From a virus: a stretch of 36,738 bases of DNA. Numbering within the stretch: position 1 is the first letter of the stretch; the number at the start of each line of letters is the position of its first letter. The position numbers and the translations under genes are program-made. The DNA is taken from positions 1 to 36,738 of the IMG/VR virus record IMGVR_UViG_3300035180_000276; one strand, written 5' to 3'. Of this stretch, positions 6,270 to 20,537 are shown piece after piece. The notes under the pieces are model-generated. The model searched no databases. It had not been told where the DNA came from and saw only the letters and a program-made list of their open reading frames with translations.

Positions 6270-6962
6270 TCATTTCATGCTCCCCAATTCGGTCTCGACC
6301 AGCGTGAGGAAGTGGTTGATCAGGTGATCCGCTGCTGCCTCCGCCGCAGCCGCCTCCACCTCCGCCGCCCTCGCCCCAGCCGATACCCACACCGCCACCG
6401 CCGCCCACGCCGCCGCCTCCGCCTCCGCCGCCGCCTCCGCTGCCACCCACGCCGCCACTGCCGCCCACGCCGCCGCCTCCGCCTCCGCCTCCACCCACGC
6501 CACCCGCGCCGCATCGTTCATCGCGGCACTCGCCTCATCGCCAGCAAGCAGCGCACCGGAAATCGCCTCGGACGCCGCAACAACAGCGGGCCAATATGGC
6601 GCATCCGCAGGTGTAACTTTCGCCGCCGCCGCAAGTGCGCTGATCGCACATTCAGCCCGGAACAAGCGGCTGATCTTGGCCCATTGTTCATCCGTCAGAA
6701 CCGACCACCGGCTTTGCGCCATGGCATACCGCGTCACAAATTCCGGCCAGCGCGCTTCCGTTCCGGCGTCATCAATCCACAGCGTCAGATCGGCGACCCA
6801 CTGCGGCATCAAATGCGCCGGGCAACCTTCCGTCGATTGCGCGCCGGGAACCAAGGCGGCATACAGGCAAGCCGTATCCCGGCCTTTGTCATCGTACCCG
6901 GTCCATGCGTTGCGGATCAGTGTGCCTTCTTCAAGACGTTGCAGAATTTGGTTCATTGTCAT
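6270..6962 (-). CDS. Ala-rich accessory protein, last gene of minus operon
   Basis: The ATG at 6962 follows AGAGGA at good spacing and overlaps the previous small frame by ATGA. The 230-residue product has an ordinary N-terminal part (LQRLEEGTLIRNAWTGYDDK; CPAHLMPQWVADLTLWIDD; WPEFVTRYAMAQSRW). The Ala-rich C-terminal half repeats AEAEAAAWAAVA and ends DHLINHFLTLVETELGSMK. The Ala/Glu/Trp repeat should be helical. No function is recognised. Confidence 0.75.
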   Translation of the reverse strand: MTMNQILQRLEEGTLIRNAWTGYDDKGRDTACLYAALVPGAQSTEGCPAHLMPQWVADLTLWIDDAGTEARWPEFVTRYAMAQSRWSVLTDEQWAKISRLFRAECAISALAAAAKVTPADAPYWPAVVAASEAISGALLAGDEASAAMNDAARVAWVEAEAEAAAWAAVAAWVAAEAAAEAEAAAWAAVAVWVSAGARAAEVEAAAAEAAADHLINHFLTLVETELGSMK

Positions 6963-7075
6963 ACTTTCATCCTCTCTTGGGCATATCTGCCCCGTTGATC
7001 CGCCATCGCAGCGGCAAGGCCGGAGAAGGCCCGCCGCACAACGCCGCTCCGCTCGCAGCCGATCAGGACGCGCAT
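6959..7075 (-). pseudogene. Truncated DNA cytosine methyltransferase remnant (38 codons)
   Basis: The ATG overlaps the upstream stop (TGATG) and the TGA overlaps the next start (ATGA), so the frame is built into the operon. It begins MRVLIGCERSGVVRRAF, the N-terminal cofactor-binding motif I region of phage cytosine-C5-type methyltransferases (usual form IGCEFSGVVR). The match ends after about 17 residues; the rest (SGLAAAMADQRGRYAQERMKV split over two parts) is unrelated. A large internal deletion of a methyltransferase gene is the simplest reading. It cannot be catalytic. Confidence 0.6.
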
Positions 7076-7308
7076 CACAGCCACCCCATCCAGCGGACGG
7101 CATAGCCGAACGCAAAACCGACCGTGGGCATCGTTGCCAGAATGACTACCAGCCCGACATGCACCCCGGCGTCTTGCTCGCTCGGCTGAGGTGCCAGCGG
7201 CAGAAACCCATAGCCGATGGCTTTCAGTTCGGCCTCAGTCAGCTTGCGCAGCGGCGGCGTCGGCTCGGCGGTACCCAGCCAGAGAGTGATGTTCCGGAGA
7301 ATGTCCAT
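7075..7308 (-). CDS. Small membrane protein, N-terminal paralogue of gene 8009-8188
   Basis: The ATG at 7308 overlaps the stop of the aaRS-like gene (TAATG). The product has 77 residues. Residues 1-38 (MDILRNITLWLG, then KLTEAELKAIGYGF) closely match the protein encoded on the other side of the aaRS-like gene. The C-terminal part differs: one membrane helix (VGLVVILATMPTVGFAFG). Function is unknown. The duplicated N-terminal part may be a recognition or docking segment. Confidence 0.7.
   Translation of the reverse strand: MDILRNITLWLGTAEPTPPLRKLTEAELKAIGYGFLPLAPQPSEQDAGVHVGLVVILATMPTVGFAFGYAVRWMGWL
7203..7236. repeat. 34-bp perfect direct repeat, copy 1
   Basis: Bases 7203-7236 are identical to 8083-8116 and lie inside the duplicated 5' segments of genes 7075-7308 and 8009-8188. 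The two copies flank the aaRS-like gene, 880 bp apart. Confidence 0.9.
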
Positions 7309-8006
7309 TACAATTCCCCTGCCATTTCGGCAACCCGGCACAACCCGATTGCGATCTCGCAGACACGCACATCGCCGGAGAAATCGGTCCTGATTGAGCA
7401 AGACGCCACCTCTTTCCAAGCGCCACGCCAGAAGGCTTCAATGTCAATGGTACTTTCGCTGTATGCCGGCAGCCTGTCACTGGCCACTTGGCGCGTCTCA
7501 CACCCCGTAAACCGCCGAACCTCCGTCGACACTGCGGGCATGACGGCAGCGCGATAGTCGGCTTTCGTATCGGCGCGATAGATGCACTGAAATTCCAACT
7601 GCCAGAACTCATTGAAGCGTAGTTTCGCCGCAGACGCACCGTCATTGCTTTCGGTGCGGAACGACTTCCCAGACTGCCAGACACAGAGCGGCAACTTTTG
7701 CCCCCTAGCTATCATATCCTTTGCCGCGAGATAGCTTGAGGCGGTCGTTTCTGCCCGAAGCGCCCATGCCTGATCGGCCTTGCGCCACTGGACCGGGAAG
7801 AAGTCGCCGGGCTCATAGGCATCGCTCATCATGGCCTGTGACGTAAGGACCGGCCCTTCCGTTCTGGCAAACCGCCATGCCGGGTTCAGCCCGAGAAGCG
7901 CGGATTTCACCGCCGCAACGGTGCGCGATTGAAACGCTTCCCGAAGCTCGATTTCAGTCTCTGACCACCACCGCAGCCCAGATATTGACGTAAGCGATTG
8001 GCTCAT
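7308..8006 (-). CDS. Class II aminoacyl-tRNA synthetase-like catalytic core protein
   Basis: The 232-residue product carries all three class II motifs in order. Motif 1 is a helix (REAFQSRTVAAVKSAL) then FARTEGPVLTS with Pro52. A segment ALRAETTASSYLAA (82-95) mirrors the LRPET region of glycyl-type enzymes. Motif 2 is SGKSFRTE (112-119) with Arg117 and Glu119, then RFNEFWQLEFQ (130-140). WKEVASCSIRTDF (197-209) resembles the strand before motif 3, and IAIGLCRVAEM (218-228) gives the motif 3 Arg224. It is closest by eye to the Gly/Ser/Thr/Pro group. There is no anticodon-binding or editing domain, so charging of tRNA is doubtful. It may activate an amino acid and pass it to another acceptor. 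The end overlaps the next gene (TAATG). Confidence 0.8.
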   Translation of the reverse strand: MSQSLTSISGLRWWSETEIELREAFQSRTVAAVKSALLGLNPAWRFARTEGPVLTSQAMMSDAYEPGDFFPVQWRKADQAWALRAETTASSYLAAKDMIARGQKLPLCVWQSGKSFRTESNDGASAAKLRFNEFWQLEFQCIYRADTKADYRAAVMPAVSTEVRRFTGCETRQVASDRLPAYSESTIDIEAFWRGAWKEVASCSIRTDFSGDVRVCEIAIGLCRVAEMAGEL

Positions 8007-8008
8007 GA

Positions 8009-8188
8009 TCACCACTCCCTCGGGCAAATATTGTAGACATTCGTTGCCCGCATGGCGATGCGGTGGGCCTCTTCCAGCGGCGGAAACCCATAGCCGATGG
8101 CTTTCAGTTCGGCCTCGGTCAGTTTGCACGGCAGCGGTGATGGTTCGGAATCGCCCAGCCACATGGTGATCGTGCGGAGAACGTCCAT
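8009..8188 (-). CDS. Small accessory protein (59 aa), paralogous to start of gene 7075-7308
   Basis: The ATG at 8188 overlaps the preceding stop (TAATG). The product begins MDVLRTITMWLGDSEP and contains CKLTEAELKAIGYGFPPL, shared with the gene beyond the aaRS-like gene. It then ends EEAHRIAMRATNVYNICPREW with no membrane helix. It lies directly upstream of the aaRS-like gene in the same transcript, so the two may act together. No known domain. Confidence 0.65.
   Translation of the reverse strand: MDVLRTITMWLGDSEPSPLPCKLTEAELKAIGYGFPPLEEAHRIAMRATNVYNICPREW
8083..8116. repeat. 34-bp perfect direct repeat, copy 2
   Basis: Second copy of the repeat at 7203-7236. Recombination between the copies would remove the aaRS-like gene and fuse the two paralogues in frame, because the repeat has the same reading phase in both genes. 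Confidence 0.9.
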
Positions 8189-8370
8189 TATTTGGCTTCC
8201 ACTTGGCGCAGCACCAGGTCGGTAAATTCCGACTCGTCGCCCTCGCCGCGCTGATCATCGAAACACTCGCGGCAGAGCAGATCGTCGGCGGTCCAGCCGT
8301 CGTTGTTGCGGACGCGCAATTCAACGCCGGTCGCGCCGCAGCTATCGCAGGCGATAAAATGGCCTATCAC
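8188..8370 (-). CDS. Small zinc-ribbon-like protein
   Basis: A GTG at 8370 overlaps the previous stop (GTGA) and is preferred over a longer frame that would overlap the upstream gene widely. The 60-residue product has two Cys pairs: CDSC near residues 8-11 and CREC near 34-37, with 22 residues between them. This is a zinc-ribbon layout. The C-terminus is acidic then helical. It may bind nucleic acid or protein; no family is named. Confidence 0.6.
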   Translation of the reverse strand: MIGHFIACDSCGATGVELRVRNNDGWTADDLLCRECFDDQRGEGDESEFTDLVLRQVEAK

Positions 8371-8576
8371 GCGTCCCGCCCGATAGCGGCCAGACCGAAG
8401 CCCATTTCCTCGACCGTATCCTGCATGTGGCTTTCGGACAGCGTGATCCATTGCGCCGTCGTGCGGTCGCAGAATGTGCCCATGCCGCGCTCCTCGGCGC
8501 GAACGGCGATGCTGAGCGTCGCGGCAAGCCGCTGTGCCGCATCAAGCGCCTTTTCCAAATCTCGCATATCGGTCAC
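8367..8576 (-). CDS. Small helical accessory protein
   Basis: Start is GTG at 8576 (GTGA overlap with the previous stop) or ATG at 8567. The product of up to 69 residues begins with a predicted helix (DLEKALDAAQRLAATLSIAVRAEERG), then CDRTTAQWITLSESHMQDT and a Gly-containing end. No known motif. It forms a link in the overlapping gene chain of the accessory operon. Confidence 0.55.
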   Translation of the reverse strand: MTDMRDLEKALDAAQRLAATLSIAVRAEERGMGTFCDRTTAQWITLSESHMQDTVEEMGFGLAAIGRDA

Positions 8577-8836
8577 TCCTGGGTCAGAAAACAGTTGAGG
8601 GTTTCAGCGTCGAATTGCGGGGTCCACGGGTGCCAACCCGGCACGTTAACTCCCATAGCGGTCAGTTGCCGCAGGCAATGGTTGCGCTGGCCGTAAGCCG
8701 CGTCGGCGTCCTCAATGTCACGCTTGCGGTCGTTTGGATCGGCGTACGCCGCCCGCGCTTCATAGCGCTGCGCTTTGGCGTGCTGGACACGCGCCTCGTG
8801 CAGCAGATCGGCGGCGATGTTGGAGTGGTCGGTCAT
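8573..8836 (-). CDS. Small hypothetical accessory protein (87 aa)
   Basis: The ATG at 8836 overlaps the stop of the octad-repeat gene (ATGA). The product MTDHSNIAADLLHEARVQH... is mainly helical and charged for 60 residues, then has GVNVPGWHPWTPQFD and a short end. No recognised domain. Context: third type of protein in the accessory operon. Confidence 0.55.
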   Translation of the reverse strand: MTDHSNIAADLLHEARVQHAKAQRYEARAAYADPNDRKRDIEDADAAYGQRNHCLRQLTAMGVNVPGWHPWTPQFDAETLNCFLTQE

Positions 8837-9450
8837 GCCGGCACCAGTTTTCCGCCGACTGCGCGATAGGCGACATTCGGCAGGATGCCGTCCTCGCCCA
8901 CGTATCCAATTGCGATCCGATAGCGCAAGCCATCCCACCATTTGATACTCAGGATGGACCATGAGCCCCCGGTGAGTGTGGACCTGTTGCCCCCGGTAAG
9001 GATGGACCCGTAGCCCCCGGTGAGGGTAGCCCCCTCGCCTCCGGCGAGGATGGACCCGTAGCCCCCGGTGAGGGTGGACCCCGCGCCCCCAGTGAGGATG
9101 GCCCCGATCACCGCGCCCCGCGCTCCGAGGCGGATGATTTCTGTCGTGGCGTCAAGCCTCGAACCGCAGAACACGACCTCGCCACGCGGAAACTTGACCT
9201 TGCCTTCCAGGGCAATCCAATCCTCAACTGCGACCACCAGCCAAACCGCATCATATGACCAGTCGGCCAGAAATCCATCACCGTAGCCCCACAGAAACCC
9301 ATGTAGGCCGTTTCCGCATTCGGGCGTGGGTTGCCAATCATGGCATTCTACCATCCCGGATCGGGGACAGACAAAACCGCCATAGCTGGTCATGCCGGCT
9401 GCGCAGGTGCGCAGGACATAGGCGGCAGATTTGGGCTTGCGTTCGGTCAT
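8833..9450 (-). CDS. Protein with ice-nucleation-like octapeptide repeats (DUF7666-like N-terminus)
   Basis: The ATG at 9450 is chosen because it overlaps the previous stop (ATGA); an upstream TTG in frame lies inside the previous gene. The product has 205 residues. Residues 10-100 (YGGFVCPRSGMVECHDWQP, then ECGNGLHGF and WLVVAVEDWIALEGKVKFP) resemble the small phage domain DUF7666. Residues 113-168 are seven octads of the form GGYGSILT / GGNRSTLT. The alternation YGS then xxS/A gives the 16-residue period of bacterial ice-nucleation proteins, whose consensus is AGYGSTxT. The end is VGEDGILPNVAYRAVGG. A beta-solenoid is expected; function unknown. Confidence 0.7.
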   Translation of the reverse strand: MTERKPKSAAYVLRTCAAGMTSYGGFVCPRSGMVECHDWQPTPECGNGLHGFLWGYGDGFLADWSYDAVWLVVAVEDWIALEGKVKFPRGEVVFCGSRLDATTEIIRLGARGAVIGAILTGGAGSTLTGGYGSILAGGEGATLTGGYGSILTGGNRSTLTGGSWSILSIKWWDGLRYRIAIGYVGEDGILPNVAYRAVGGKLVPA

Positions 9451-9809
9451 TCTTGCACCCAATCCGACAGATCGCAGGGCCGGGACGAGGCCGGGATTTC
9501 GTCAATGTCGCCCTGCAGGCCGGAACAGTTTCCCCGCAGGCCGGTGCAGTTGCCCCGCAGGCCAGTGCATTTACCCCGCAGGCCGGAACAGTCGCCCCGC
9601 AGGTCGGTGCAGTCACCCTGCAGACCGGAACAGTCGCCCCGCAGGCCGGAGCATTTGCCCCATAGGCCGAAGCATTTGCCCCACAGGCCGGTGCAGTTTC
9701 CGCGCAGGTCGGTACAGTCTCCGGTCATATCCGGGTTCGGCCCCATCACCATCACGCCATCGGCGAAGTGATACAGGGCGGGCGCGGTGCGCGTCAGTGG
9801 CTTGGTCAT
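9447..9809 (-). CDS. Cys-rich heptapeptide-repeat protein C (11 units)
   Basis: The ATG at 9809 overlaps the previous stop (ATGA). Product: 120 residues = 28-residue N-cap (MTKPLTRTAPALYHF...) + 11 heptads of the form xGDC(S/T)xL + 15-residue C-cap (PASSRPCDLSDWVQE). Cys and Leu recur every seven residues, so one Cys and one Leu column would stack in a solenoid. Two variant units carry Lys in place of Asp/Asn. It differs from pentapeptide-repeat proteins in period and in the Cys column. Function unknown. Confidence 0.75.
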   Translation of the reverse strand: MTKPLTRTAPALYHFADGVMVMGPNPDMTGDCTDLRGNCTGLWGKCFGLWGKCSGLRGDCSGLQGDCTDLRGDCSGLRGKCTGLRGNCTGLRGNCSGLQGDIDEIPASSRPCDLSDWVQE

Positions 9810-9873
9810 TCTTGCACCCAATCCGACAGATTGCAGGGCCGGGCGGACGCTGGGATAGCATCAATGTCGCCCC
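9786..9873. repeat. 88-bp perfect direct repeat, copy 1
   Basis: Bases 9786-9873 equal 10313-10400 without mismatch (offset 527). Each copy covers the 3' cap of one heptad-repeat gene, the ATGA junction and the first codons of the next gene. A similar but diverged junction lies at about 9440-9515. Confidence 0.95.
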
Positions 9874-10336
9874 ACAAGCCGGAACAGTTTCCCCGCAGGC
9901 CGGTGCAGTCGCCCCATAGGCCGGAGAAGTCGCCCCGCAGGTAGGTGCAGTATCCCCGCAGGAAGGTGCAGTTACCCCGCAGGAAGGTGCAGTCACCCCG
10001 CAGGAAGGTGCAGTCACCCCATATGTCAGAACAGTTGCCCCGCAGCCCGGCGAAGTCGCCCCGCAGCAAGGTACAGTTGCCTCGCAGGTCGGTGCAGTCG
10101 CCCCGCAGGCCGGAGCAGTTGCCCCGCAGTCCGGAGCAGTCGCCCCATATATCGGAACAGTCTCCCCACAGACCAGAGCAGTCGCCATACAGGCCGGTGC
10201 AATCGCCCCACAGGCCGGTGCAGTTGCCCCGCAGACCGGAACAGTCGCCGGTCATATCCGGGTTCGGCCCTGTCACCCTTTTATCAACGATGTAGTGATA
10301 CAGGGCGGGAGTGGTGCGCGTCAGTGGCTTGGTCAT
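9806..10336 (-). CDS. Cys-rich heptapeptide-repeat protein B (19 units)
   Basis: The ATG at 10336 overlaps the previous stop (ATGA). The 176 residues split as 28-residue N-cap, 19 heptads and 15-residue C-cap. The caps are nearly identical to those of protein A. Most units are (R/W)G(D/N)C(T/S)xL; a few replace Cys by Phe (GDFAGL, GDFSGL) or carry aromatic residues before Leu (CTFL, CTYL). Copy number is the main difference from its paralogues. It likely arose by tandem duplication. No catalytic motif and no signal peptide. Confidence 0.75.
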   Translation of the reverse strand: MTKPLTRTTPALYHYIVDKRVTGPNPDMTGDCSGLRGNCTGLWGDCTGLYGDCSGLWGDCSDIWGDCSGLRGNCSGLRGDCTDLRGNCTLLRGDFAGLRGNCSDIWGDCTFLRGDCTFLRGNCTFLRGYCTYLRGDFSGLWGDCTGLRGNCSGLWGDIDAIPASARPCNLSDWVQE

Positions 10337-10400
10337 TCTTGCACCCAATCCGACAGATTGCAGGGCCGGGCGGACGCTGGGATAGCATCAATGTCGCCCC
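10313..10400. repeat. 88-bp perfect direct repeat, copy 2
   Basis: Second copy of the 9786-9873 repeat, at the junction of proteins A and B. Exchange between copies would gain or lose one whole 527-bp gene unit in frame. Confidence 0.95.
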
Positions 10401-10800
10401 GCAGACCGGTGCAGTCGCCCCACAGGCCGGAGCAGTCGCCCCGCAGGTCCGTGCAGTTGCCCCGCAGACCGGTGCAGTCGCCCTTCAGGTAGGTGCAGTT
10501 ACCCCGCAGGAAGGTGCAGTCACCCCGCAGGTTGGTGCAGTCGCCCCATATGTCAGAACAGTTGCCCCACAGGCAGGAGACGTCGCCTTGCAGCAAGGTA
10601 CAGTTGCCCCGTAGGTTGGTGCAGTCGCCCCATAGGCCAGTGCAGTCGCCCCACAGGCCAGTGCAGTCGCCCCGTAGGTCGGTGCAGTCACCCAGCAGAC
10701 AGGAACAGTCGCCGGTGATATCCGGGTTTGGTCCCGCCACCCTTTTATCAACGATGTAGTGATACAGGGTGGGAGTGGTGCGCGTCAGTGGCTTAGTCAT
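10333..10800 (-). CDS. Cys-rich heptapeptide-repeat protein A (16 units), first gene of accessory operon
   Basis: Two in-frame ATGs exist (10806 and 10800). The one at 10800 is chosen because AAGGGGG stands six bases before it. Product: 155 residues = 28-residue N-cap (MTKPLTRTTPTLYHYIVDK...), 16 heptads and the C-cap PASARPCNLSDWVQE. One unit has Val for Cys (GDVSCL). A 21-base DNA period underlies the repeats. Being first in the transcript, it should be the best expressed of the family. Cytosolic, function unknown. Confidence 0.75.
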   Translation of the reverse strand: MTKPLTRTTPTLYHYIVDKRVAGPNPDITGDCSCLLGDCTDLRGDCTGLWGDCTGLWGDCTNLRGNCTLLQGDVSCLWGNCSDIWGDCTNLRGDCTFLRGNCTYLKGDCTGLRGNCTDLRGDCSGLWGDCTGLRGDIDAIPASARPCNLSDWVQE

Positions 10801-10830
10801 CTTCATCCCCCTTAGCGTCGTACCTTGGGG
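10801..10830 (-). promoter_or_regulatory. 5' leader hairpin covering the ribosome site of the accessory operon
   Basis: Read on the minus strand, the predicted transcript begins in a C run (CCCC-AAGG, from about 10830) and meets AAGGGGG just before the first start codon. The C run can pair with the G run of the ribosome site. This would make a small hairpin at the very 5' end that hides the site. Confidence 0.4.
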
Positions 10831-10835
10831 GAGAT

Positions 10836-10863
10836 AGTATCCTCAACAGCGGACCCATGTCAA
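10836..10863 (-). promoter_or_regulatory. Sigma-70-type promoter of accessory operon
   Basis: On the minus strand TTGACA (10863-10858) and GATACT (10841-10836) are 16 bases apart. The start would fall near 10829, about 30 bases before the ATG at 10800. The -10 element lies inside GAGGATAC, which also overlaps the -10 of the rightward promoter at the lysogeny switch. Confidence 0.65.
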
Positions 10864-10910
10864 CAGGTATATCCGCCGCAGAAGATGTTTTCGACACGGC
10901 GCGGCGAATC

Positions 10911-10937
10911 AAGAAAGAAGCCCCGCCTAGCGACGGG
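10911..10937 (-). terminator. Intrinsic terminator after lipoprotein gene
   Basis: On the minus strand CCCGTC and GGCGGG form a 6-bp stem (one G-T pair) around GCTA, followed by the pyrimidine tract CTTCTTTCTT. It separates the lipoprotein gene from the accessory-operon promoter. Confidence 0.6.
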
Positions 10938-10962
10938 ACCTGATCATGCGCTGCGGCGGGCG

Positions 10963-11376
10963 TCAGTCCTGGACGGCTGTGACCTTGCCGTTCGTCGTAT
11001 AGATATACGGGCCGTAAAGGCTGGTGACGACATACTGCACGTCGACGCCATAGGCGGTGCGGGTGGTGTTCACCGCGTCGAACACGCCGGCAAAGGCGCA
11101 GACCATCGCCGACTCGCTCATACCGATGAAAATCTGCCGCGTGCCAATGGCGGAGATATCGGCCTCGGTGAACAGCTTGCGCCGCCGCAGTTCGCCCAGC
11201 CCGGCCACCAGGCCGCCGTGACCGACGATCTTAGCGCTGTTGATTGACCAGCATAGGTCATGCAGGCTCAGGCTCTGCACTGTGGCCGGATCAGGCGGCG
11301 CGGCGCATCCGGTCACAACCGCACATGCAGCCGCCGCCGCAAGAATCATCACCTTCCGCGTGAGAATTGCGATCAT
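10963..11376 (-). CDS. Lipoprotein, probable lysogenic-conversion gene
   Basis: The ATG at 11376 is chosen over the longer frame because AAGGATAGG stands before it and a clean signal peptide follows. The 137-residue product has basic N-terminus, hydrophobic core and a lipobox VTGC with Cys24. The mature part has a few Cys residues and ends with a beta-type stretch (YVVTSLYGPYIYTTNGKV). It sits next to the repressor on the same strand, where genes expressed from a prophage often lie. A surface role such as superinfection exclusion is a guess. Confidence 0.65.
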   Translation of the reverse strand: MIAILTRKVMILAAAAACAVVTGCAAPPDPATVQSLSLHDLCWSINSAKIVGHGGLVAGLGELRRRKLFTEADISAIGTRQIFIGMSESAMVCAFAGVFDAVNTTRTAYGVDVQYVVTSLYGPYIYTTNGKVTAVQD

Positions 11377-11399
11377 ATTCCTATCCTTGTGACCAACAA

Positions 11400-11421
11400 A
11401 ACATGATTGTTTCAGCATGTT
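11400..11421. promoter_or_regulatory. Inverted repeat upstream of lipoprotein gene
   Basis: AACATG (11400-11405) and CATGTT (11416-11421) form a perfect inverted repeat with a 10-base centre, 24 bases upstream of the lipoprotein start. It may be an operator or an RNA hairpin in the leader. I could not find a convincing promoter here. Confidence 0.35.
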
Positions 11422-11477: not shown

Positions 11478-11642
11478 ATGCTGGTTCCAGACTTTATTGC
11501 CGCGATAGATTCAATGACTGAACAGGAGCGGGCCGACCTGGCCGACATGCTCAGGCTGGGCGGCGATCCTCAAGAATCGCCAAAAGACCGTCCCATGTCG
11601 CCGGATCGCGCTCCGACAGCCGAACCAGACGTTCCGTCTTAG
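11478..11642 (+). CDS. Doubtful small frame antisense to repressor end
   Basis: A 54-codon frame MLVPDFIAAIDSMTEQERAD... lies between the lipoprotein and repressor genes and overlaps the repressor 3' end in antisense. The first 30 residues look protein-like (an acidic amphipathic helix); the rest is the mirror of the repressor. No good promoter or ribosome site is seen. It may be spurious. Confidence 0.25.
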   Translation: MLVPDFIAAIDSMTEQERADLADMLRLGGDPQESPKDRPMSPDRAPTAEPDVPS

Positions 11643-11883
11643 GGGTGATGGCGAAGCCATAGAGTAACCATGCCAGAGACACGTCCATCCTCTGGCATAG
11701 CTTTGCCATACTTCCCAAGGCCGGTTCCTTGCCGTCCTTCAGGATCGAGTGCACATAGCCCTCGGCACAGCCTGCCTCCAACGATAGCGCGCGCATGGAC
11801 AGGCCCGTGCCGTCCATCACCTCGACCATTCTTGCACGCCAATCGCTCGCATCCATGCCGATGGCATCTTCCAGCGCGGACAT
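11551..11883 (-). CDS. CI-like repressor, XRE-family HTH
   Basis: A 110-residue DNA-binding protein. The helix-turn-helix spans about residues 27-50 (GLSMRALSLEAGCAEGYVHS) and is followed by SMAKLCQRMDVSLAWLLYG, the usual closing helices. It lacks the C-terminal peptidase domain of lambda CI, so RecA-driven self-cleavage is unlikely and induction must work otherwise. It is divergent from the Cro-like gene at 11945, with 61 bases between them, the classic lysogeny switch layout. AGAGGA precedes the ATG by ten bases. Confidence 0.85.
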   Translation of the reverse strand: MSALEDAIGMDASDWRARMVEVMDGTGLSMRALSLEAGCAEGYVHSILKDGKEPALGSMAKLCQRMDVSLAWLLYGFAITPKTERLVRLSERDPATWDGLLAILEDRRPA

Positions 11884-11944
11884 TTTTGCATGTCCTCTTT
11901 AGAATATACTTGACGGGTCCGCCGCAGAGGATACATTGTGCGGC
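11884..11944. promoter_or_regulatory. Lysogeny switch: divergent promoters and candidate operators
   Basis: Rightward promoter: TTGACG (11910-11915), 16-base spacer, TACATT (11932-11937). The expected start, near 11944, coincides with the ATG at 11945, so the Cro-like mRNA may be leaderless. Leftward, TATATT-like sequence lies before the repressor. TCCTCT (11893-11898) and AGAGGA (11926-11931) form an inverted pair 27 bases apart, extended to ATGTCCTCT against ATGTATCCTCT on the other strand; they are candidate repressor half-sites. Confidence 0.55.
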
Positions 11945-12157
11945 ATGGACCATATCATTCCTCATCAATCGCTGCTCTCCGAGATTGACGCCTTCTTGGC
12001 GGAAACCGGCATGGGCGAAAGCTACTTCGGCAAGTGTGCTGCCCAGAACTCCGAGGTTGTAAAACGGCTTCGGCGTGGTGGGCGCATCTGGCCCGATACG
12101 GAAAGCGGCATTCGCCGGTTCATCGCAGATCGCCGCAACGCCGCGAAGGCGCCCTGA
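11945..12157 (+). CDS. Cro-like early regulator
   Basis: A 70-residue protein in the Cro position, transcribed away from the CI-like gene. The core GESYFGKCAAQNSEVVKRLRRGGRIWPDTESGIRRFI matches, by eye, a small phage regulator type in Rhodobacterales (FG..A....V.RLR.G..V...T) and can form a helix-turn-helix. No ribosome site precedes the ATG, in line with a leaderless transcript. Likely shuts off the repressor and starts the early operon. Confidence 0.7.
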   Translation: MDHIIPHQSLLSEIDAFLAETGMGESYFGKCAAQNSEVVKRLRRGGRIWPDTESGIRRFIADRRNAAKAP

Positions 12158-12631: not shown

Positions 12632-12804
12632 CCCATTCACATCCAGGCGCTGTCCAAGCTGGCCCGGATACCGCTGCGGGGGAACGCGTGGCAGCGCGCC
12701 GCGGCGGTCAACCCATTGCCGCGCCGACCTCCTCCCCGGTGCTGGCAACCGTCCCGGCTGGCCTGGCCCCCGGCCAGTCGGGACGGAACGAATTCCAAGC
12801 ATGA
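12628..12804 (+). CDS. 58-residue Pro/Ala-rich hypothetical protein
   Basis: The frame begins MTHSHPGAVQAGPDTAAGER and ends GQSGRNEFQA, overlapping the previous gene and the methyltransferase start by ATGA. Composition is disordered (Ala, Gly, Pro). Exact ATGA junctions at both ends favour translation; it may serve mainly to couple translation of the methyltransferase. Confidence 0.45.
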   Translation: MTHSHPGAVQAGPDTAAGERVAARRGGQPIAAPTSSPVLATVPAGLAPGQSGRNEFQA

Positions 12805-13823
12805 CAGACGCCCCGTTCATTTGGTTCGGCGGGAAGCGCCGTGTTGCCCCGATCATCTGGGACGCTCTTGGCGACGTGGATCATTATGTCGAGCCGTTCT
12901 TCGGTTCCGGCGCGGTACTGCTGCGGCGCCCCCAAAAGCCCGGCTGTGAAACAGTCAATGATGCTGACGGTCTCTTGGCCAATGCATGGCGTGCCATCAA
13001 ACTAGACCCGGCGGCAACAGCACATCATGCCGCAAACCCGGTGAATGAGGCTGATCTACATGCCCGTCACCTTTGGTTGGTGAATGCAAAGACCGGCATT
13101 ACCGAGCGGCTTATGGCAGACCCGGATTGGTTTGACGCCAAGGCGGCGGGCTGGTGGATGTGGGGTATCAACTGTTGGATCGGCAGCGGCTTTTGCAGCG
13201 GTGAGGGGCCGTGGATTGCCGAAGGCGGGGTGTTTCAAAAGCGGGACACCGGCCAAGGCGTCGACCGGCAACTGCCACATCTGGGGGACACCGGCAAAGG
13301 CGTCAATCGGAAACTGCCACATCTGGGGGACACCGGCAAAGGCGTCAATCGGAAACTGCCGAACGGACAACGCGAAGCCTTCCTTGCCGACTGGTTCGCC
13401 GAACTGGCCGAGCGCCTCGCCGATGTGCGCGTGGCTTGCGGCGATTGGTCCCGCATCACCGGCCCGAGCGTCTTGCGATCAGCGGGAGGCGTCTGCGGTG
13501 TGTTCCTTGACCCGCCTTATGACATGGACATGCGCACCGCCGTTTACGCCAACGAAAGTCCCTGCGCCAAGGATGTCTTGGCGTGGTGCGAAGCCAACGG
13601 GTCCGACCCATCCTTGCGCATCGTGCTTGCAGGCTATGACGGCGAACACAACCGGCTGGAAGATCAAGGCTGGCGCGTCCACGCATGGAAAACATCAGGC
13701 GGATTTGGCGGCGGGCGCGGTGGGCGCGGCGAGGAAAACTCCAGCAAGGAGCGCCTTTGGTTCAGCCCGAACTGCCTTGATCACGTGCGGCAGCGGGACA
13801 TGTTCAGCGAGGCCGCCGAATGA
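12801..13823 (+). CDS. DNA N6-adenine methyltransferase, D12 (Dam-like) class
   Basis: The 340-residue enzyme transfers a methyl group from S-adenosylmethionine to adenine in DNA. Motifs: FGGKRR at 9-14 (target-adenine/cofactor end), YVEPFFGSGAV at 29-39 (cofactor motif I) and DPPY at 237-240 (catalytic). Start at 12801 overlaps the previous gene by ATGA; a much longer upstream frame is ignored because its codon use and two short genes there argue against it. Residues about 147-187 hold 14-residue tandem repeats in the region that usually reads the target. Probably protects phage DNA from host restriction. Confidence 0.9.
   Translation: MTDAPFIWFGGKRRVAPIIWDALGDVDHYVEPFFGSGAVLLRRPQKPGCETVNDADGLLANAWRAIKLDPAATAHHAANPVNEADLHARHLWLVNAKTGITERLMADPDWFDAKAAGWWMWGINCWIGSGFCSGEGPWIAEGGVFQKRDTGQGVDRQLPHLGDTGKGVNRKLPHLGDTGKGVNRKLPNGQREAFLADWFAELAERLADVRVACGDWSRITGPSVLRSAGGVCGVFLDPPYDMDMRTAVYANESPCAKDVLAWCEANGSDPSLRIVLAGYDGEHNRLEDQGWRVHAWKTSGGFGGGRGGRGEENSSKERLWFSPNCLDHVRQRDMFSEAAE
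13272..13355 (+). repeat. Two perfect 42-bp tandem units in methyltransferase gene
   Basis: Units 13272-13313 and 13314-13355 are identical and encode LPHLGDTGKGVNRK; a diverged partial unit precedes them from about 13240. The period is a multiple of three, so gain or loss of a unit stays in frame. Confidence 0.9.
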
Positions 13824-17777: not shown

Positions 17778-18340
17778 CCGCACCGCATCGTCAAAAGAAA
17801 CACGACCGCCTGACCTACGGCTCACAGGTCACGCCGAAGGAAATCGCTTGTGACTTCGCCCTCGGCCCGCTTGATCGGGTGGCCATGGACATGGACCGCA
17901 TCTGGGGCGTCGACCGCCTGGTCGAATTGCAGACCCCAGCCGTCGCCGCCAAATACGGGGCGCGCATGGCCGAACTGAATGCGGCCATCGTCGCATCGGA
18001 CCCGGAGTCGACCGCCGCCGTCGTCGCCATCCTGATCGCCAACCTGCGGCGCATGGATGCCTTGGCGCGGGAAGCCGGGCACCAGCCGTTGCAACCCGAG
18101 GTCTGGACCTTCGACGTGGACGGCTTTCGCTTCGGCCTGATGCGCGAGGGCGGAGATTGGCCGGCCGCGCAAGCCGCCATGCCAGGTCTGGCGCTGTTCA
18201 GCCCGCGTGAGATTGCCAACGCGCTCAAAGCCTATCGCGGGCTGGTGGCAGACGCCAAACGCGCCTTCCCCGGCAGAGAAGCCAAGCCTCGCCAACGCAC
18301 AGAACTGGAGGAGAGCTTAAATGACGAAATCCCATACTGA
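17774..18340 (+). CDS. Hypothetical early protein (188 aa)
   Basis: The product starts MTAPHRQKKHDRLTYGSQ; a mostly helical middle (LVELQTPAVAAKYGARMAELNAAI split across helices) is followed by WTFDVDGFRFGLMREGGDW and a basic C-terminal stretch. I recognise no family. It overlaps the next gene by 20 bases, and its 3' end holds the ribosome site GGAGGAG of that gene, so the two are coupled. Confidence 0.65.
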   Translation: MTAPHRQKKHDRLTYGSQVTPKEIACDFALGPLDRVAMDMDRIWGVDRLVELQTPAVAAKYGARMAELNAAIVASDPESTAAVVAILIANLRRMDALAREAGHQPLQPEVWTFDVDGFRFGLMREGGDWPAAQAAMPGLALFSPREIANALKAYRGLVADAKRAFPGREAKPRQRTELEESLNDEIPY

Positions 18341-18701
18341 TCGGGGACCAGTCGAAATCGAATTTGAGGACCAAACCATACTTGCGCTGGCAAGTCAGGG
18401 TCGCAAAGACGACGCTTGCAAGCCGCGCATGGACCTGTTGCCGCCTGAATTGCTGATGGGCGTTTCCGAGGTGCTGACATACGGTGCGGCGAAGTATGCC
18501 CCGCGCAATTGGGAAAAAGGCATGTCTTGGGGCCGCGTGTTTGGTGCGCTCATGCGGCATATGTGGGCTTGGTGGGCCGGGCAGCATCTCGATCCTGAGA
18601 GCGGCTTGCCGCATCTGTACCATGCGGGCTGCTGCATCGCCTTTCTGATCGCCTATGAGGCCCGCCAGATCGGAAACGATGATCGGCAGGCAGCGCCATG
18701 A
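18321..18701 (+). CDS. dATP/dGTP diphosphohydrolase-like protein (DUF5664 type)
   Basis: A 126-residue helical protein. The sequence RMDLLPPELLMGVSEVLTYGAAKYAPRNWEKGMSW (in two parts) followed by HMWAWWAGQHLDPESG and LPHLYHAGCCIAFLI matches the DUF5664 fold, now linked to dATP/dGTP diphosphohydrolases of the MazG-like superfamily (MazZ type). Such enzymes change the nucleotide pool; in some phages they serve the 2-aminoadenine pathway together with PurZ. No PurZ-like gene is seen here, so pool control or anti-host action is more likely. Confidence 0.75.
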   Translation: MTKSHTDRGPVEIEFEDQTILALASQGRKDDACKPRMDLLPPELLMGVSEVLTYGAAKYAPRNWEKGMSWGRVFGALMRHMWAWWAGQHLDPESGLPHLYHAGCCIAFLIAYEARQIGNDDRQAAP

Positions 18702-19306: not shown

Positions 19307-19965
19307 TAAAAGCCGTTCACATCAATGGCCGTGAAATGGCGGAATGCACCTGCGACGATTGCGGCGTGAAACTCAGTTTTGCAGCGCAGCACGTCACAAG
19401 CTCTCATGGCTGGAAACCGAGCCAAGCCAAGATCGTGCTGGAAAGCGATGGCAAGGCCATAGCCAAGGCGCAGTCCTATGGCTGGGCTTACGTCAAGGGC
19501 GTGCTGCGCTGCGACAAATGTGAAGCAAAACGGAAATCCAAACAGGAGGCACCCATGCCGACAGTCGTAACCCCAAACCGACAGCCAACCCGCGAGGACA
19601 AGCGCCAGATCGTGGAACTGCTAACCTTCAGTTATGACACGACAGCCGGGCGATATCGCGGGTCCGACACGGACAAAACCATTGCTGAAGTCCTTGGCGG
19701 CAGTGTCATGCCAGGCTGGGTTGCCGAAATCCGCGAGGAACTGTTCGGCCCCGATGGTGGCAACGCCGAACTCGACACGCTGGCCGCAGAGGTTGCCAAA
19801 TGGGCCGACGAATTCACCCGCCGCGCCGGTGACGTGGACAAGCGCCAAGCCGATCTGACGACGGCGCTCCGGGAATTCCGCGATCACCGCGACCAAGCCT
19901 CGGCAATCGTCAAGCGGATCGAGGCGCTGAAAAAGGCCATCGGTCCGAAGGCGGCAAGCGCATGA
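19303..19965 (+). CDS. Hypothetical protein with Cys-pair N-terminus and coiled-coil end
   Basis: The ATG at 19303 (ATGA overlap) is chosen over an upstream in-frame ATG inside the previous gene. The 220-residue product has Cys pairs CTCDDC and CDKC (about residues 11-16 and 68-71), which could bind zinc. It ends in a charged coiled coil (about 150-215). Near residue 100 is REDKRQIVELLTFSYDTTAG. Similar Cys-pair plus coiled-coil proteins occur in early phage operons, but I name no family. Confidence 0.6.
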   Translation: MIKAVHINGREMAECTCDDCGVKLSFAAQHVTSSHGWKPSQAKIVLESDGKAIAKAQSYGWAYVKGVLRCDKCEAKRKSKQEAPMPTVVTPNRQPTREDKRQIVELLTFSYDTTAGRYRGSDTDKTIAEVLGGSVMPGWVAEIREELFGPDGGNAELDTLAAEVAKWADEFTRRAGDVDKRQADLTTALREFRDHRDQASAIVKRIEALKKAIGPKAASA

Positions 19966-20537
19966 CCTACCACATCGGCCAGACCATCCCCGCGCCTCCG
20001 CGACCACGACGCCTGCAGGAAGCCGCCATGCACGCGCCGCTCTGGTTCGGCTTCTGCAACCTCAAGGGCGGCGACCGTGCTGCCCGCGCCCAACTCGAGG
20101 CCGATGGCGTCACGGCATGGTTTCCGACCAAGATCGTCCACCATCGGATTGCACGCGGGCCGAACCGCACCTGTCAAGTTGAGCGCAGCGTCATCGGCGG
20201 ATACGTGTTCGGACTGTTCACAGGCTTTCCACAGTGGGATTTACTGGCCAAAAAGGTCGGACAGGTGATCGCACAAGGCGGCAAGCCCTATGCTATCCCA
20301 GAGCGCGCCATGACCGAAATGGCCGACATGCCGCATTTCCTCGCCAGTCGCATGGCCGCGATCCGAGAGGCCAACACCGTCCACCCCGGCGATATGGCGC
20401 GCATCTGCGACGGCGTGGCCGCAGGCTGGACCGTGCAGGTGACGGCGATCCACAATGGCGTGGCCCGGTATTTCATCCCGCTACTCGGTGGCCGTGAAAC
20501 GGAAATTGCGGTGGATCGGTTGCAAAAAAGCACTTGA
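19962..20537 (+). CDS. NusG-like transcription elongation/antitermination protein
   Basis: The 191-residue protein begins with a short extension, then a NusG N-terminal-like domain: WFGFCNLKGGDRAARAQLE, VTAWFPTK, then SVIGGYVFGLF and GGKPYAIPERAM. This follows the order of strands and helices in NusG/RfaH. The end (VHPGDMARICDGVAAGWTV ... IPLLGGRETEIAVDRLQ) has the KOW-like pattern pGd.vri..G....g. It is the last early gene and lies 10 bases before the late promoter. It likely acts on RNA polymerase to favour late transcription. Confidence 0.7.
   Translation: MTYHIGQTIPAPPRPRRLQEAAMHAPLWFGFCNLKGGDRAARAQLEADGVTAWFPTKIVHHRIARGPNRTCQVERSVIGGYVFGLFTGFPQWDLLAKKVGQVIAQGGKPYAIPERAMTEMADMPHFLASRMAAIREANTVHPGDMARICDGVAAGWTVQVTAIHNGVARYFIPLLGGRETEIAVDRLQKST

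Follow-up and report, generated by a model that had tools for sequence, protein, structure and literature searches.

The window analysed here is the whole of IMG/VR virus record IMGVR_UViG_3300035180_000276 (36,738 bases), which comes from a siphovirus-like phage. Twelve closely packed frames, g1 to g12, run on its minus strand from 10800 down to 6270 (Table 1), and this run is probably a leftward early, pL-type, accessory operon that shares a regulator with the rightward early promoter P_R and carries modular, host-directed genes of help early in infection. As an operon it is unremarkable among phage accessory regions. The families that it puts on display are little studied, namely the Cys-heptad repeats and a core resembling glycyl-tRNA synthetase (GlyRS), the latter found from jumbo phages down to this 36.7-kb phage.

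Host RNA polymerase would start at the leftward promoter P_L (10863-10834) early in infection and would make one polycistronic message for g1 to g12, translated largely via re-initiation at the ATGA-type junctions. One regulator, probably the helix-turn-helix (HTH) protein encoded at 11551-11883 and/or the small protein encoded at 11945-12157, would act on both promoters, with P_R leading into replication genes and P_L into accessory genes. The products would be probable beta-solenoid binding proteins (g1-g4), a repeat rod (g12), a core predicted to form glycyl-adenylate (g9) and small proteins, alongside a decayed g11. These proteins most likely aid early infection while being individually dispensable, with host takeover or counter-defence as our best guess for their role.

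Promoters and regulation

A TTGACA-16-GATACT promoter, as proposed in a sequence-only reading of this DNA, is present upstream of g1, and TACTAT, at a spacing of 18 bp, is just as good a -10 element. The motif GGGTCCGCYGYWGAGGATAC is common to P_L and P_R (17/20 identical); in both promoters it lies between the -35 and -10 elements and enters the -10 hexamer, in nearly the same register. When three or fewer mismatches are allowed, these are the only two sites in the 36.7-kb contig, where shuffles expect 0.00-0.02. The motif core, TCC-N8-GGA, is an imperfect dyad, as would be expected for the site of a dimeric HTH protein. On the rightward side, P_R leads to genes for RuvC, a Gp2.5-like single-stranded DNA-binding protein (SSB) and a helicase-primase. 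An early promoter pair under one regulator is the simplest reading of this layout, which looks like lambda pL/pR. Since P_L shares its operator-like site with P_R, a repressor that silences P_R would silence P_L too, and from the sequence we infer that the operon would be switched on when the phage infects and would stay off in a resident prophage.

The likeness to a lambda-type pL/pR region lies in a repressor candidate between divergent early promoters with operator-like sites in common, with small accessory genes leftward and replication genes rightward. In contrast to lambda, the leftward operon has no recognisable N-like antiterminator (a match to an antiterminator is at 19962-20537), no integrase is found, the repressor candidate is short, an HTH protein that lacks a peptidase domain, and a lipoprotein gene and a terminator-like hairpin stand between repressor and P_L.

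Several points weigh against an early operon under shared control. The regulation is read from a single pair of motifs in a single genome; close relatives that could have shown whether the motif is conserved were not found. The HTH_3 score of the short repressor candidate (22.1 bits) falls just under the Pfam cut-off of 23 bits, and terminator-like hairpins in the region do not exceed the chance count. Integrase (PF00589), resolvase (PF00239), ParA (PF13614) and ParB (PF02195) are all absent from the contig, which may be incomplete; control genomes were positive. Without an integrase or partition gene, the phage may be non-temperate, even strictly lytic, and the operator-like sites may serve another regulator.

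The sequence-only reading offered lysogenic conversion or superinfection exclusion as a role, in which the operon would be expressed from the prophage while the lytic genes are silent. Such a role would suit an operon that has its own promoter, shares its strand with the CI-like gene and runs against the late genes. It would also suit BPP-1 and D14O, in which g4 relatives follow cI. However, a repressor acting at P_R should silence P_L through the common operator-like site, the terminator-like hairpin would block read-through and isolate the operon from the repressor transcript, and the integration and partition genes named above are missing. This role is therefore the less likely one, and we consider it improbable.

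Between the CI-like gene and the terminator-like hairpin, and immediately downstream of the former, lies a lipoprotein-like gene (10963-11418, minus strand) whose signal peptide ends in VVTGC. It has no family match, and superinfection exclusion is a likelier role for it than for the operon.

Frames and junctions

All twelve frames are open on the minus strand, as had been described. Neighbouring genes meet by ATGA at g1/g2, g2/g3, g3/g4, g4/g5 and g11/g12, by GTGA at g6/g7, by TAATG at g7/g8 and g9/g10, and by TGATG at g10/g11. Overlaps of 4 or 1 bp are thus found at 9 of the 11 junctions, versus 15/44 among plus-strand genes (Fisher p = 0.006). Of the packing it had been said that the only gap was two bases before the synthetase-like gene; the 2-bp gap is there (g8/g9), but a further gap of 5 bp at g5/g6 had been overlooked. 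There g6 starts at ATG 8567 with a well-placed AGGAG, that is, with its own ribosome-binding site, and a GTGA junction can be read solely with GTG 8576 as the start. For g1, the start at 10800 (not 10806) agrees with the N-termini of g2 and g3.

The start-stop overlaps had been taken as the sign of a functional unit. The early rightward run has the same junction style, with 5 of 7 junctions overlapping (p = 1.0 against the operon), so tight coupling is this phage's way of building early operons and no evidence for a shared machine.

Conservation in relatives

The closest relatives of this phage are far off, at 57% at best for the coat protein and 61-63% for the helicase-primase. Relatives found by the major capsid protein have the head genes in common and not the operon, and a helicase scan of bacterial genomes yielded one 3-kb contig of a metagenome-assembled genome and no prophage. 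Only one relative, viral contig L136 (50% in helicase-primase), keeps the place and strand of the operon. Upstream of its RuvC gene, in the corresponding position, it has a run of minus-strand accessory genes that includes the intact start of a methyltransferase gene and a gene for a DUF7666 Ala/Trp repeat protein, along with a divergently oriented HTH gene. In MW202691, deposited as a podovirus, a minus-strand operon combines a heptad gene with genes for a DUF7666 repeat protein, a Sak recombinase and a YbcO nuclease. A candidate cI gene in that record (7128-7868) was ruled out on reading its sequence. In BPP-1, its relative vB_BbrP_003 and D14O, g4 relatives are encoded on the strand of cI and follow it by a few genes. 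These arrangements in L136, MW202691 and the g4-bearing phages speak for the leftward early reading.

No relative found keeps the gene set or the gene order, which argues against one co-evolved machine. The heptad proteins g1-g3, g4, g9 and g12 each occur in different phages without the others. DUF7666 occurs in 1/21 other heptad-bearing records searched; as this is a single record, co-occurrence of the two families as a general rule is not supported. Similar kinds of gene gather in the early operons of unrelated phages, as movable modules.

The idea that the solenoids, small proteins and GlyRS-like enzyme work together, for instance as a defence or counter-defence complex, draws on the tightly coupled junctions and on the joint presence of a DUF7666 repeat protein and a heptad protein in the MW202691 operon. 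Against it stand the separate distributions of the genes, the rarity of DUF7666 beside heptad genes, the decay of g11 and the occurrence of the same junctions elsewhere in the genome. PADLOC returns only a weak chance match, to g8, and a dedicated defence system is not indicated. A single machine is thus quite improbable. Of the co-translated functional unit proposed earlier, one transcription unit with its own promoter stands, whereas the genes in it are most likely independent modules.

Repeat proteins

The proteins g1 to g3 are tandem copies whose conserved N- and C-terminal caps are also found in relatives. Their heptad, G-D/N-C-T/S-x-L-x, is present in 43 units, with Gly in 43/43, Cys in 40/43 and Leu or Ile in 43/43. 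Synonymous third bases vary while the Gly, Cys and Leu are kept, a codon pattern as would be expected under selection on the protein. Relatives are found at 27 loci in metagenomic viral contigs and, among sequenced phages, in one of 50,697 phage records (MW202691). At least two Cys-heptad copies per contig are seen in L092, L093/L102, L101, L103, L109 and L114. The end of one copy often overlaps the start of the next, a layout also seen in the window; two of the L092 copies are encoded on opposite strands.

The AlphaFold model of g2 is a beta-solenoid of low to moderate confidence (mean predicted local distance difference test, pLDDT, 65.2). A Foldseek search with the heptad model gave no match with E < 0.001, and the structural matches are generic beta-helices (VIA); no specific fold assignment is claimed for the modelled proteins. 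The pentapeptide-repeat proteins MfpA, Qnr and AlbG are likewise small stand-alone beta-solenoids, with Z about 8 to the heptad model, the low confidence of which bears on this comparison. They differ in that the repeat of g1-g3 has seven residues with a Cys per unit; the five-residue A(D/N)LXX repeat is not found in the 43 seven-residue units, and no sequence relation was found. Nor are g1-g3 consistently acidic: the net charge per heptad lies between about 0 and -0.9, values that do not point to DNA mimicry.

Matches of g1-g3 to PF02349 (fungal major surface glycoprotein; E down to 7e-9) are judged compositional, due to the Cys/Leu repeat. Coiled-coil matches of the heptad profile among solved structures reflect chance heptad phase. 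A literature search on the heptad motif and on DUF7666 found no papers.

Relatives of g4 include BPP-1 bbp36, D14O and Mica (the 'ice nucleation protein'), and g4 matches phrog_18079 with an E-value of 1e-36. It has GGYGSILT-type octapeptides encoded by 24-nt DNA units, the octapeptide hallmark of ice nucleation proteins, and matches neither the N-terminal domain nor the family of these proteins. Its N-terminal domain is instead DUF7666-like (E 0.005, below the cut-off). With the phage proteins Bbp36, Mica and D14O it has in common the N-domain, octapeptide repeats and a C-terminal cap, and it differs from them in repeat number and sequence. A scan of viral contigs with g4 found no relative. 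In BPP-1 bbp36 (L007:5391-5720) the annotated variable region VR2 coincides with the octapeptide repeats.

A relative of g12 in an unrelated phage contig is 92% identical over 143 residues. In viral contig L158 (20563-32953) a g12 relative adjoins a tyrosine-recombinase-like gene and a large cytosine methyltransferase-like one, both judged by eye.

Beta-solenoids are common in tailspikes, and g1 and g2 weakly match phrog_19577, 'minor head protein' (E 1.3e-5 and 2e-4), which could make the repeat proteins virion parts (minor head or tail fibre) and the operon structural. The match is confined to the repeat region and probably reflects composition; a relative is found amid early recombination genes, and the operon lies opposite to and apart from the head and tail genes. 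A structural operon is thus very improbable, in keeping with the sequence-only reading, which had placed the operon opposite to all late genes and recognised no virion role in it.

GlyRS-like core and small neighbours

The repeat rods, small Cys proteins and aminoacyl-tRNA synthetase-like core described earlier are confirmed as repeat proteins, a protein with two CxxC motifs and a real core, g9. The latter matches the class II core PF00587 (E 7e-8), the NCBIfam GlyRS model (2e-10) and, as a family profile, solved structures (7e-17), and its AlphaFold model has a pLDDT of 91.6. The class II catalytic motifs are present: E86, R117, E119, R130, E138, E217 and R224 do not vary across 30 members of the family. 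Relatives are found at at least 80 loci in viral contigs, many of them from jumbo phages; some lie on shorter contigs near a terminase-like gene (recognised by eye).

Two known enzymes are close to g9. With GlyRS (alpha2, class IIa) it shares the class II core and intact TXE, motif 2 and motif 3 residues, and the structures align with a Foldseek E of 1e-13, Z 22.5 and a root-mean-square deviation (rmsd) of 2.7 over 224 residues. In contrast to GlyRS, g9 has only 232 residues and about 19% identity, ends directly after motif 3 without an anticodon-binding domain, and is accompanied by no tRNA gene in the contig. The Bradyrhizobium glycine:[carrier protein] ligase (Bll0957; PDB 3mf2, 4h2s) is, like g9, a stand-alone class II core (Z about 20, rmsd 3.0 over 215 residues) and activates glycine, as is predicted for g9. 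It differs in that the sequence profile of g9 is nearer to GlyRS and in that no carrier protein is recognised in the operon; family searches of g5-g10 found none, and small proteins without assignment remain there.

By analogy with GlyRS, g9 likely forms glycyl-adenylate. More tentatively, and less likely than not, its family may be a phage-specific glycine activator whose acceptor is something other than an ordinary tRNA-Gly (a protein, a carrier or a phage tRNA), used for an early change to the host. If g9 does glycylate such a target, this would be a phage host-modifying chemistry not described in the literature searched.

A 117-nt direct repeat, 81% identical, lies at the starts of g10 (7194-7310) and g8 (8074-8190) and brackets g9, which suggests that g9 may have arrived or moved by duplication and recombination.

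In one clade, made up mostly of large phages (L184, L191, L194, L197, L198, L206 and L090), the g9 relative has a CUA-anticodon tRNA upstream of it, at a distance of 0.06-1.9 kb, and in most cases a CysRS gene as well. The pair is possibly an amber-suppressor system. TAG stops are rarely used in this clade (3/58 vs 55/426), which is only suggestive. Derivation of these tRNAs from tRNA-Gly was rejected, as their acceptor stems are not tRNA-Gly-like.

Methyltransferase relic

The first 17 residues of g11 match the start of a cytosine methyltransferase in L136, and the remaining residues match the C-terminal end of such an enzyme (phi3LM21 p25: score 43; 0/1000 shuffles as high). The L136 gene lies on the same strand, upstream of RuvC and helicase-primase, and its frame is open, the contig ending inside the gene. 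In g11 the first 17 codons are fused in frame to the C-terminal end, with about 180 codons missing relative to phi3LM21 p25, and its 38 residues hold no intact catalytic body of a cytosine DNA methyltransferase. Judged by its sequence, g11 is an in-frame internal deletion relic and not a functional gene; the operon proposed as one of twelve genes has twelve open frames, the eleventh of which is no working gene.

That the operon is mostly neutral cargo, gained and lost with little fitness effect, would agree with the g11 relic, the partial duplication of g8 and g10 and the varying gene content among relatives, but is the least probable reading given the invariant active site of g9, the heptad residues kept under synonymous change and the intactness of every frame other than g11.

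Features of the region and genome setting

Table 1. Genes of the leftward operon and regulatory features around it (aa, amino acids)
Feature	Position	Strand	Description
g1	10333..10800	-	Capped Cys-heptad (GDCTGLR) repeat protein, 155 aa, 15 heptads; two tandem paralogues
g2	9806..10336	-	Cys-heptad repeat protein, 176 aa, 18 heptads; predicted beta-solenoid, low-moderate confidence
g3	9447..9809	-	Cys-heptad repeat protein, 120 aa, 10 heptads
g4	8833..9450	-	Ice-nucleation-like octapeptide repeats and DUF7666-like N-terminal domain, 205 aa
g5	8573..8836	-	87 aa; no relatives in sequenced phages
g6	8367..8567	-	66 aa; ATG 8567 with AGGAG
g7	8188..8370	-	60 aa, two CxxC motifs; probable zinc ribbon, weak matches only
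g8	8009..8188	-	59 aa; N-terminus duplicated in g10
g9	7308..8006	-	Stand-alone GlyRS-like class II catalytic core, 232 aa, active site intact
g10	7075..7308	-	77-aa g8 paralogue, hydrophobic C-terminal stretch
g11	6959..7075	-	38 aa, cytosine DNA methyltransferase relic
g12	6270..6962	-	230 aa, Ala/Trp-rich repeat C-terminus; close relatives in unrelated phages
P_L	10834..10863	-	TTGACA-18-TACTAT or -16-GATACT
Operator-like site GGGTCCGCTGTTGAGGATAC	10837..10856	-	Within P_L
Second operator-like site TCCGCCGCAGAAGAT	10872..10886	+	Inverted copy of core, just upstream of P_L
Terminator-like hairpin	10918..10941	-	Between lipoprotein gene and P_L
CI-like HTH repressor candidate	11551..11883	-	110 aa; HTH_3 E 1.6e-4; phrog_2328 repressor E 6.6e-5
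P_R, rightward early promoter	11910..11937	+	TTGACG-16-TACATT
Operator-like site GGGTCCGCCGCAGAGGATAC	11915..11934	+	Within P_R; 17/20 to P_L site
First rightward early gene	11945..12157	+	70 aa; Cro-like by position only, no family match

The operon lies between lysis genes on one side and replication genes on the other. The plus strand carries genes for a P22-like coat protein, portal, scaffold, terminase, tail tube, tape-measure protein, endolysin and spanin, and the record also encodes the RuvC, Gp2.5-like SSB and helicase-primase named above and a D12 adenine methyltransferase. The 36,738-base record has no exact terminal repeat in the size range 10 to 200 bases, and Rfam and tRNA scans of the window gave no matches. 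The gene for the D12-type adenine methyltransferase (12801-13823, plus strand) has tandem repeats inside it (HLGDTGKGVNRKLP). Further along the plus strand, the gene at 18321-18701 encodes a dATP/dGTP diphosphohydrolase N-terminal domain (PF18909, E 6e-36).

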